From assembly GCF_016863315.1 (NCBI RefSeq), contig NZ_BOOQ01000003.1:310001-374000 (forward strand): a stretch of 64,000 nt of DNA, given 5' to 3'. The notes under the pieces are model-generated. The model saw nothing but the letters and a program-made list of their open reading frames with translations. It was not told the origin of the DNA and searched no databases. Every line of letters starts with the position of its first letter. Position 1 is the first letter of the stretch. Below are positions 8,025-18,934 of the stretch, piece after piece. The position numbers and the translations under genes were made by a program. This DNA comes from Planotetraspora silvatica (GTDB lineage: Bacteria; Actinomycetota; Actinomycetes; Streptosporangiales; Streptosporangiaceae).

Positions 8025-8046
8025 GTTCATCATCCGGTCACCTCAT
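8025..8046 (+). promoter_or_regulatory. Putative PHO box (tandem 11-nt repeats)
   Basis: GTTCATCATCC and GGTCACCTCAT stand directly next to each other. Each begins G(T/G)TCA, like the 11-base direct repeat units bound by PhoP in streptomycetes. They lie 88 bases before the PstC start, at the head of a phosphate-type transporter operon. A similar GTTCAATCACC occurs at 8072. Phosphate control is an inference from motif plus context. Confidence 0.6.
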
Positions 8047-8133
8047 CATGCGCACCAAGACATTGACCGACTGTTCAATCACCCTCGGCGCGGCGCGAAT
8101 CGCTCGCGTATCGGACGTGGGGAGAGAGCGCGC

Positions 8134-9165
8134 ATGACTTCCGCAGACGCGGTGCCCGGCAGGCCCTGGGGAGGGGGCCGGCAGCCGGACGACGTTCCAC
8201 GCCGGCTCAACGCCGCTCGTGGGCTGGGTGACCGCATCTTCCGGTACCAGTTGACGGCGGCCGGGGTCGCCGTACTGGCGATCATGGCGGCGGTAGGGGT
8301 GTTCCTGCTGCTCAGAGCCACTCAGGCGCTGAAGGCGACCGGTTTCTCCTTCCTCACCACCGCGGCGTGGCAGCCTGATGTGCACGACTTCGGCATCGCC
8401 GCCGTCCTCACCGGGACGCTGCTGATCGCCATGGTCGCCGTCCTCGTCTCGCTGCCGCTCGCTCTCGGCACTGCGCTGTTCATCTCGGAGGTCGCGCCGC
8501 GAAGGCTGCGCCGGACTCTGATCTCGATGGTGGACCTGATGGCCGCGGTGCCCTCCGTGGTGTACGGGCTGTGGGGGCTGTTCTTCCTCCAGCAGCATGT
8601 GATCACCCTGTCGCGCTGGCTGTCCGACTGGTTCGGCTGGATCCCGTTGCTGAAGGTGGACGGCACGGAGCCCGGCCAGCCGCTGGCCTCCGCCAGCGTG
8701 TACACCGCCTCCGCCTTCGTCGCCGGGATCGTGGTCGCGCTGATGGTCACGCCGATCCAGTGCTCGGTGATGCGGGAGGTCTTCTCACAGGCCCCGGCGG
8801 GCGAGCGGGAAGGCGCGTACGCGCTCGGCGCGACTCGCTGGGGCATGATCCGCTCGGTGACGCTCCCGTACGGCCGCGGCGGAATCATCGGTGGCACGAT
8901 GCTGGGCCTCGGCCGGGCGCTCGGCGAGACCATCGCGGTCTACCTGATCATCTCTCCGGTCTTCGTCATCCAGCCGCACATCCTGCAGACCGGCACCAAC
9001 TCGGTGTCCTCGCTGATCGCACTGCACTACGGCGACGCCTCCGAATTCGGCATGTCGGCACTGATGGCGGCGGGCCTGGCGCTGTTCGTACTCACGCTGG
9101 CGGTCAACTTCACGGCTTCAACGATCGTGGCGCGCTCCCGGTCCGGCGCGCAGAGCGAGGCGTGA
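8134..9165 (+). CDS. pstC: Phosphate-type ABC transporter permease, PstC family
   Basis: I chose ATG 8134 (MTSADAVPG), preceded by GGGGAGAG; upstream in-frame starts add an uncharged, poorly conserved leader. The 343-residue product has a cytoplasmic N-terminus, then about six membrane helices starting at LTAAGVAVLAIMAAVGVFLL. The permease loop EGAYALGATRWGMIRSVTLP is the EAA motif that docks onto the ATPase. GRALGETIAVYLI is typical of PstC. It is the first gene of the operon reaching 18934. It would form the membrane channel with PstA and is driven by PstB. Confidence 0.92.
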   Translation: MTSADAVPGRPWGGGRQPDDVPRRLNAARGLGDRIFRYQLTAAGVAVLAIMAAVGVFLLLRATQALKATGFSFLTTAAWQPDVHDFGIAAVLTGTLLIAMVAVLVSLPLALGTALFISEVAPRRLRRTLISMVDLMAAVPSVVYGLWGLFFLQQHVITLSRWLSDWFGWIPLLKVDGTEPGQPLASASVYTASAFVAGIVVALMVTPIQCSVMREVFSQAPAGEREGAYALGATRWGMIRSVTLPYGRGGIIGGTMLGLGRALGETIAVYLIISPVFVIQPHILQTGTNSVSSLIALHYGDASEFGMSALMAAGLALFVLTLAVNFTASTIVARSRSGAQSEA

Positions 9166-9166
9166 C

Positions 9167-17042: not shown

Positions 17043-17966
17043 GTGACGGTCGCCGAAGACACCCTGCCCCGCACACCGGCCCCGGCCGCCGCGTCGCCGC
17101 ACACGCTGGTGCTGCGGATGCCCGCCGGTCGCCACATCGCGCGCGGCGCGCTGCTCACCCTCGCCGCGCTGCTGCTCGGCCTGACGATCCAACTTCTGCT
17201 GCTCAGCGGTCTGCAGCAGCGCGCCGCGCAGCAAGCGGCGTTCGACGCGTTCCGCGGCTCCCTCGCCGAGGGCGTCGCACCCGTCGCCCAGACCGACCAG
17301 CAGGGCAGGCTGCTCGCCCTCGGGACTCCCGTGGCGCTGCTCGACATCCCCGCCCTCCAGGTTCGCCAGGTGGTGTTGGAAGGGACCGGCTCCGCCGTAC
17401 TCGCCGACGGCCCCGGCCACCGCCGCGACACCCCGCTGCCCGGACAGGCCGGCACCAGCGTGCTGATGGGCCGAGCCGCCGCGTACGGCGGTCCGTTCGG
17501 CGACCTCGGCAAGCTGACCGCGGGCGACACCTTCACCGTCACCACCGGGCAGGGCAAGGCCCAGTTCCGTGTCCTGGACGTGCGCCGCGCGGGGGATCCG
17601 GCCCCGGGCCCGCCGGCAGCGGGCAAGAGCCGCCTGGTCCTGGTCACCGCGACAGGCGCGCCCTACGTCCCTGAGGGAATCCTGCGGGTCGACGCGGACC
17701 TGGTGTCGGCCACCGCCGAGACCCCGAGCCCCACCATCAAGTCCGGCTCGCTTCCCGACGCCGAACAGCCGATGGAGGGCGACGCCGGCAACCTGTGGCA
17801 GCTGGTCATGTGGCTCCAGGCGCTCGCGGCCGCCTCGATCGCCGCCGTGTGGGCCTGGAAGCGCTGGGGCCGTCAACAGACCTGGATCGTCTTCGCGCCG
17901 ATGGTCGCCCTCCTCGGCCTCGAGGTCGCCGGCCATGTCATCCGATTGCTGCCCAACCTGCTGTGA
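17043..17966 (+). CDS. Sortase-fold protein lacking catalytic His and Cys
   Basis: The 307-residue product starts at GTG 17043 behind AAGGAGG. An N-terminal helix ([18 protein letters not shown]) precedes an extracellular sortase-like domain (about 80-225), recognisable by [38 protein letters not shown] and [19 protein letters not shown]. Two C-terminal helices follow. Active class E/F sortases have GH before the YGxPF stretch and LVTCxP later. Here these read GR (Arg144) and LVTATG (Ala203), so both catalytic His and Cys are absent. Transpeptidation is therefore unlikely; a structural or binding role is inferred. It overlaps the pstB upstream region by GTGA. Confidence 0.8.
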
Positions 17967-17998
17967 CCACCTTCTCCGTACCGCATCGAGGTGCCCGC

Positions 17999-18094
17999 GT
18001 GACCGACATCGCCGCTCCAGCCGTGACCGACATCGGCGTCCCCACCGTGACCGACATCGGCGTGCCCACCGTGAGCGACATCGGAGTCCCCGCC
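17999..18094 (+). repeat. Four tandem 24-bp in-frame repeats at the pstB start
   Basis: Units begin at 17999, 18023, 18047 and 18071. Each reads GTGA(C/G)CGACATCG followed by a variable end, encoding V(T/S)DI(G/A)(V/A)P(T/A). Every unit starts with an in-frame GTG. Copy number could vary by slippage without breaking the frame. Confidence 0.9.
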
Positions 18095-18934
18095 GCCGCA
18101 GAGCCGCTCAAGGACACCGTCAAGCAGCCCGCCGTCGCCGCCCGGCCGGGCGCCCTCCCGCCGGCCGGCCTGGACGCCCGCGCCGTCTCCGCGTGGTTCG
18201 GGAGCCACAAGGTGCTCGACCGGGTCACGCTGGCCATGCCGGCCGGGGAGGTCACCGCGCTGATCGGTCCCTCCGGTTGCGGAAAGTCGACCTTCCTGCG
18301 CACTCTCAACCGCATGCACGAACTCATTCCCGCGGCCACGCTGGCGGGTGAGGTCCTGCTCGACGGCGAGGACATCTACGGCACGGGCCGCCGCCTCACC
18401 GACGCCCGCCGGCAGATCGGCATGGTCTTCCAGAAGCCCAACCCGTTCCCGACGATGAGCATCTATGACAACGTCGTCGCCGGGCTGCAGTTCACCGGCG
18501 TGCGCGTCTCCCGCCGTACCAAGGACGACCTGGTCGAGGAGTGCCTGAACCGCGCCGGGCTCTGGAAAGAGGTCCGCGACCGGCTCCGCCAACCCGGCGG
18601 CGCGCTCTCCGGCGGCCAGCAGCAGCGCCTGTGCATCGCCCGCGCTCTCGCCGTGCGCCCGCGCGTCCTGCTGATGGACGAGCCCTGCTCCGCCCTCGAC
18701 CCCACCTCCACCCGCCGGGTGGAGGAGACCATCCTGGAGTTGGCGAGCGAGGTCACGGTCGTGATCGTCACGCACAACATGCAGCAGGCGGCCCGGGTTT
18801 CCCAGCAGTGCGCCTTCTTCCTGGCGGAGCAGGGCACTCCGGGCGGCATCGTCGAGCATGGTCCCACCCCGGCCCTCTTCGGCAGTCCGCAGGACGAGCG
18901 CACCGCCGACTACGTGGCGGGCAGGTTCGGCTGA
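17999..18934 (+). CDS. pstB: Phosphate-type ABC transporter ATPase PstB
   Basis: The GTG at 17999 is favoured because GAGG lies 7 bases upstream; GTG 17963, overlapping the sortase stop, is possible. The first 32 residues are four copies of an eight-residue repeat ([12 protein letters not shown]), absent from ordinary PstB. The ATPase core has Walker [10 protein letters not shown] (about 90-98), Q-loop [15 protein letters not shown] typical of PstB, signature LSGGQQQR, Walker [14 protein letters not shown] and the His switch [10 protein letters not shown]. It energises PstC/PstA. It is last in the operon, whereas it usually follows pstA directly. No phoU is present. Confidence 0.93.

Follow-up and report, generated by a model that had tools for sequence, protein, structure and literature searches.

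The phosphate importer PstSCAB, with Escherichia coli structures 9k3s and 9k3x and pstSCAB operons in Streptomyces, is among the closest described systems to a seven-gene operon in the stretch of DNA analyzed here: 64 kb (the window) from the 8.66-Mb, 117-contig genome of the soil actinomycete Planotetraspora silvatica. The two share homologous PstC, PstA, PstB, and PstS proteins, the inorganic phosphate (Pi) ligands of PstS, equivalents of PstA residues R170 and R220, and a PHO-like box. The window differs in gene order (C-A-S-PBP2-PBP3-sortase-B), in a transmembrane (TM) anchor on PstS, and in a PstA that falls in a separate group. It also adds a degenerate protein of the periplasmic binding protein (PBP) fold (PBP2), a secreted PBP with immunoglobulin (Ig)-like stretches (PBP3), and a sortase-like protein with replaced catalytic residues (the pseudo-sortase). 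According to excerpts of two papers, PstS of S. lividans and S. coelicolor is likewise an actinomycete surface protein with PHO boxes upstream (PMC7866108), but it is a lipoprotein (PMC2605767) encoded in a pstSCAB operon. The window operon with its inactive-looking sortase is real, conserved, and constrained. We consider it about an even bet that it specifies a distinct, conserved, cell-surface-assembled actinobacterial Pst importer subtype in which a catalytically dead sortase now serves as a permanent membrane subunit.

For the sortase-like protein, the class E enzymes SrtE1 of S. coelicolor (5cuw) and its S. avermitilis counterpart (5go5) provide the comparison. The equivalents of His251, Cys320, and Arg329 are all replaced in the window protein, which differs further in having two extra C-terminal TM helices, linkage to pst genes, and a class E score below the cut-off. 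An excerpt of PMC5148588 names His, Cys, and Arg as the catalytic triad. In Actinoplanes missouriensis, every one of the five candidate sortases, one of class E and four of class F, has been disrupted (PMC13251363), and the word phosphate is absent from the main text of that paper. Searching the open-licence literature by title or abstract opening turned up no description of the present system.

The genes of the operon are as follows.

8134-9165, + strand: pstC, phosphate-type ATP-binding cassette (ABC) permease (TIGR02138, 256 bits; cut-off of 196 passed).
9167-10450, + strand: pstA, phosphate-type ABC permease (TIGR00974, 212 bits; cut-off of 193 passed).
10450-12111, + strand: pstS, with a C-terminal TM anchor and basic tail (PF12849, 121 bits; TIGR00975, 188 bits, below the cut-off of 205).
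12123-14810, + strand: PBP2, a PstS-fold protein without a Pfam match (HHalign; AlphaFold2 [AF2] with VIA-align).
14958-16952, + strand: PBP3, a secreted PBP followed by Ig-like stretches (Big_3_5 over cut-off; PBP part by profile comparison).
17043-17966, + strand: the sortase-like gene (PF04203, 53 bits, over cut-off).
17999-18934, + strand: pstB, ABC ATPase (TIGR00972, 333 bits, below the cut-off of 343.2).

A first-pass annotation had proposed these seven genes, in this order, as mostly joined by overlaps or short gaps and arranged unlike pstS-C-A-B. Open reading frames (ORFs) and profile matches bore this out. The compact operon pstC-pstA-pstS-PBP2-PBP3-sortase-pstB occupies 8134-18934 (+), and its spacings from pstC to pstB, taken from the coordinates, are +1, -1, +11, +147, +90, and +32 bp. 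The proposed start at 8025 proved to be where a PHO-box-like repeat begins and not the start of pstC, which is an ATG at 8134 preceded by a plausible ribosome-binding site.

By the annotation's own standard, sortase-like and PBP2 genes that do not stay next to pst genes in other genomes would have counted against it; the comparisons did not refute it. When the sortase-like protein was searched against 200 genomes of the same family-level group, strong relatives were present in 19, its own included (rows counted down to E = 1.4e-33). At the 20 family-level loci (L037-L055 and L063, from the other genomes and one further genome), pstB was directly next in 17. The exceptions were L042, which meets a contig edge; L046, where pstB comes first in the operon; and L047, where a PBP3-like gene follows the sortase-like gene and no pst genes lie on the piece fetched. 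A scan with one genome per species gave 356 relatives, and the best 80 of these 356 (the named loci) were compared. pstB lay no more than 1.2 kb downstream of the sortase-like gene in 78 of the 78 named loci with at least 900 bp of sequence there, and no more than 700 bp downstream in 75 of them. The other two are L083, which stops at a contig edge 107 bp past the sortase-like gene, and L106, which carries pstB upstream. Given pstB just downstream in every locus with enough sequence, the arrangement is not due to chance. Upstream of the sortase-like gene were PBP2 in 67/68 named loci, PstS in 64/66, and PBP3 in 63/68, with PBP3 placed after pstB in the remaining five. The counts for pstA (55/64) and pstC (46/62) were lower, which we ascribe to the 10-kb flank falling short in longer operons. 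The three PBP-fold proteins and the inactive-looking membrane sortase thus form one conserved unit, as had been suggested.

Linked loci occurred in Streptomyces, Actinacidiphila, Streptacidiphilus, Planotetraspora, Microbacterium, Cryobacterium, Leucobacter, Plantactinospora, Dactylosporangium, and acidimicrobial metagenome-assembled genomes, and their families include Microbacteriaceae and Micromonosporaceae. Distribution over the phylum is patchy, with sortase-like relatives in 6 of 198 genomes at E ≤ 1e-25, the source genome included. We call the 37 Streptomyces-Actinacidiphila-Planotetraspora loci, which are of the window's type, compact and the other 43 named loci extended. Species with compact loci include S. 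griseoruber and S. diastatochromogenes. In one genome of the same genus (G022), the sortase-like protein is 79% identical to that of the window. That genome has a second, extended copy (L038, also counted as L111; G022:C43:29000-47000), in which two WxLIP-type genes accompany several genes for PBP3-like and small secreted proteins.

The window protein has a sortase fold (AF2 with VIA-align; PF04203), preceded by an N-terminal TM helix and followed by two C-terminal TM helices that end in RLLPNLL; the LPN of this ending was invariant in 17 rows. Its class E NCBIfam score was 59.6 bits against a cut-off of 160. The catalytic His and Cys were replaced in all 81 sequences compared, and the His, Cys, and Arg columns read R, A/S, and V/I/L, respectively, throughout, with Arg invariant at the His position. 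Of the three columns, that of the catalytic Arg is the least certain, since many rows have an Arg two residues further on. These replacements agree with the earlier description of the sortase as inactive-looking and point to a catalytically dead protein. Loss of the catalytic residues could also mark a decaying pseudogene among ordinary neighbors. That explanation is very improbable and was set aside, along with chance neighborhood: reading frames are open, ratios of nonsynonymous to synonymous substitution (dN/dS) are 0.08-0.41 (0.24 for the sortase domain), the Arg at the His position does not vary, and linkage to pstB is 78/78.

A second, divergent pseudo-sortase pst locus is present in the same genome (L061; G000:C5:36500-56000). 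Among its other products are a PBP, a sulfotransferase, and a PBP2-like protein that matches neocarzinostatin below threshold. Five of six rows of this C5 type keep His and Arg and have Thr for Cys; the sixth (L056) reads R, S, S.

The transporter core sets the operon apart from other pst loci. For comparison we used 18 pst loci on other contigs of 15 family-level genomes, the source genome included; these are called canonical in that they have no pseudo-sortase link and lower scores. Linked loci for the trees were 19 chosen from the 80 named loci together with the family-level loci. The PstA tree placed 27 linked and 6 C5-type rows on one side and all 18 canonical rows on the other (support, 94), with support of 99 for the linked group. 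The source genome thus has the window's system together with a canonical pstC-pstA-pstB set (C61) and a second system with a pseudo-sortase (C5). PstB and PstS miss the equivalog cut-offs, which argues for a variant subtype and not a standard PstSCAB. Taken together, the sequence comparisons support a distinct Pst importer subtype well. In PstB, an N-terminal extension of about 58 amino acids precedes the ABC domain and contains tandem VTDIGVP-like repeats (17999-18085).

The conserved ligand residues of PstS, the equivalog matches of PstC and PstA, and the PHO-like box are in line with the earlier assignment of a phosphate-type importer. PstS matches known PstS structures. Across 21 rows, the positions that we take to be Pi ligands were nearly unchanged: S75, R182, S186, and G187 in 21/21, D88 in 19/21, and T48 in 17/21, with Ser in the other four. 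Hydropathy and a tail alignment of 63 relatives with the window place a C-terminal TM helix from about residue 516, followed by a basic tail. PBP2 has a beta-rich N-terminal region (about 50-300), a complete PstS fold (303-759), a low-confidence linker, and, by hydropathy, a C-terminal TM helix; the structure comparison (AF2, VIA-align) thus confirmed the suspected binding-protein fold. Most of its Pi-ligand positions are replaced, and conserved acidic residues stand there. For this reason PBP2 is unlikely to scavenge phosphate, and that role is not favored, though PBP2 may bind another ligand. PBP3 carries conserved motifs of its own, GSDTT, DFARSS, and QAGSGT, and then two Big_3_5 Ig-like stretches. 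It is predicted to be secreted and has no C-terminal TM helix. The Ig and PBP parts of its earlier annotation held; the fibronectin type III label found sub-threshold matches only. dN/dS was highest for PBP3 among the genes measured in all 12 pairs (11 close pairs and P. thailandica, about 1.2), a pattern to be expected if the protein is exposed.

The acidic residues at the ligand positions of PBP2, together with the PBP3 motifs and high dN/dS, could suggest that the operon imports an anion other than free phosphate, such as an organophosphate or a fragment of a polymer, with specificity contributed by PBP2 and PBP3. We consider this rather improbable, since the Pi-ligand columns of the operon's own PstS are nearly unchanged and a PHO-like box precedes the operon.

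The box lies 109 bp upstream of the pstC ATG.

8025-8042, + strand: PHO-box-like direct repeat, GTTCATC-N4-GGTCACC.

This repeat matches 12 of 14 positions of GTTCACC-N4-GTTCACC, which we take to be the PHO consensus. Across the two strands of the window, two sites reached 12/14 (two 11-bp PHO units), at 8025 (+) and 44208 (-). In compact relatives, an aligned GTTCAc block occurs upstream of pstC, and 22/32 had a score of at least 10 within the leading 110 bp of a 170-bp upstream segment, versus 4.8% of base shuffles. A site of at least 12, at any position relative to pstS, was present in 12 of the 18 canonical loci. A PHO box of two 11-nucleotide units upstream of pstS is described in an excerpt of PMC7866108.

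An alternative is that the operon is a sensor, built as a phosphate-flux receptor of PBPs and pseudo-sortase that surrounds a Pst channel and signals to PhoR-PhoP; the first-pass annotation had offered a receptor array as one option. A canonical pstC-pstA-pstB set is already present in the genome, and PhoU with PstSCAB is thought to sense import (excerpt of PMC13170248), both of which would suit such a role. Yet a Pfam scan found no kinase or PhoU domain in the seven operon proteins or the seven neighboring proteins. Moreover, dN/dS is low for PstC, PstA, and PstB, and the window PstA, aligned to 9k3s_A, retains the Arg residues matching E. coli R170 and R220. The functional roles of these two residues are presumed here, and their positions were counted by hand. 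We regard the sensor explanation as quite improbable.

How the pseudo-sortase might act is suggested by the extended relatives. The WxL/WxLIP surface loci of Firmicutes are presumably a fitting comparison here: proteins of the WxLIP_PGBD type adjoin the pseudo-sortase in many extended relatives. Called with a profile built in this analysis (2 of 10 proteins submitted passed the Pfam WxLIP_PGBD cut-off), WxLIP-type proteins occurred in 29/43 extended loci versus 0/37 compact loci. None of the seven window proteins has a WxLIP Pfam match, and unlike the Firmicutes loci, these are joined to a phosphate-type ABC importer. A strict L[AP]xTG sorting signal was carried by a gene no more than 4.5 kb upstream of the pseudo-sortase in 16/75 loci, all extended; anywhere in these loci, the signal occurred in 22 of 1,560 ORFs longer than 150 amino acids. 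Three proteins in the LAxTG position (L113, L136, and L102) had no Pfam match over cut-off. With rows lacking a clear C-terminal TM helix omitted, a degenerate [LVIM][AP]xxG motif was present in 28/63 PstS, 5/60 PBP2, and 1/39 WxLIP tails. The earlier proposal of surface anchoring is supported by the C-terminal TM helices of PstS and PBP2 and by the cell-wall-type WxLIP and LAxTG partners in relatives.

These observations are consistent with a pseudo-sortase that probably docks C-terminally anchored binding proteins. PstS and the secreted PBP3 would capture phosphate or a related anion outside the cell, with PBP2 as a non-binding, scaffolding PBP. Ancestors of the pseudo-sortase would have bound C-terminal LAxTG-TM-basic tails; the present protein would hold such tails non-covalently and so dock the binding proteins at PstC/PstA. 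PstB would power import, and PhoP would probably raise expression at low phosphate. A more specific proposal, which we advance tentatively and think less probable, is that a wall-anchoring transpeptidase now acts permanently, and without catalysis, as the tail receptor of an ABC importer, binding uncleavable sorting-signal-like tails and thereby building a multi-PBP uptake complex on the Gram-positive cell surface, with PBP2, and its acidic pocket, as scaffold.

The LAxTG/LPxTG genes near 16/75 loci would also fit an assembly helper, which gathers the operon's LAxTG proteins and hands them to an active SrtE for covalent anchoring near the importer. The source genome has five other PF04203 places, and at two of them the class E columns read His, Cys, and Arg. 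None of the 16 LAxTG loci is compact, however, yet the pseudo-sortase is equally conserved in compact loci, and its steadiest neighbor is pstB (78/78), not an LAxTG gene. We think the helper explanation unlikely.

Several results weigh against a distinct importer subtype with a docking pseudo-sortase. The named loci are the best 80 of 356 relatives, and the position of pstB is not universal (L046, L047, and L106). The PstB tree separates the groups less cleanly than the PstA tree, with 4 changes where 2 suffice and aberrant long rows (L133 and L153). PstB (333 versus 343.2 bits) and PstS (188 versus 205 bits) fall under the NCBIfam cut-offs, though these are their best-matching families. PBP2 has not lost every ligand, as Ser is still present at the S139 position in 27/34 rows. 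The window box matches at 12/14, while 11/18 canonical loci have 13-14. The PstS tail motif is degenerate: Thr is mostly absent, the window reads VAAETGW, 35/63 tails have no motif, and the rows are related, so the docking idea drawn from this motif is a lead only. Finally, compact loci such as that of the window contain no strict LAxTG or WxLIP gene, and tail docking there would consequently fall to PstS and PBP2 alone.

Sortases are known as enzymes. A family free of catalytic residues and kept beside a nutrient importer would, if the interpretation is true, be a clear pseudoenzyme exaptation. The operon suggests that a nutrient importer has taken over, as a structural component, a protein family whose former task was attaching proteins to the cell wall. 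The tail-receptor proposal, if true, would add a new kind of ABC importer accessory subunit. With the pseudo-sortase family, it becomes a testable question how binding proteins are positioned across the thick wall of Gram-positive bacteria and how substrate is passed on to a membrane permease. A pseudo-sortase gene beside pstB would serve as a marker of a second phosphate-importer type in actinobacteria, many Streptomyces included, where phosphate controls metabolism.

Two hairpins bracket PBP3.

14811-14880, + strand: conserved intergenic hairpin element of about 70 nucleotides before PBP3, from comparison with compact relatives.
16977-17004, + strand: perfect 12-bp hairpin after PBP3, terminator- or attenuator-like (z = -3.35 for 16953-17042).

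The first element was found in 36/37 compact relatives, the exception (L087) lacking sequence upstream of PBP3. Columns were on average 86% identical (37 rows, window included), and the element is single copy in the genome (no more than 3 mismatches to a 21-base core). It is possibly a regulatory RNA; Rfam matches in 14700-17200 were all far below gathering scores. A pseudoknot noticed by eye (GGCAG with a downstream CTGCC) was rejected, as it is not kept in L086, L091, L093, and L099. After PBP3, stems of at least 11 bp occurred in 33/37 compact loci, with differing sequences. A sigma-70 promoter scan gave 0 sites, and a T-run terminator scan gave 5 versus 3.8 in shuffles.

The genes flanking the operon look unrelated to it. 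By Pfam scan, a CMD-family gene lies upstream, and an aldo/keto reductase, a luciferase-like monooxygenase, and an FMN reductase lie downstream; redox-type enzymes and two BTAD regulators are among the seven neighbors scanned. The regulators, of the BTAD/NB-ARC type, stand on both sides of the operon, at 3687-6488 (-) and 21972-23837 (+).
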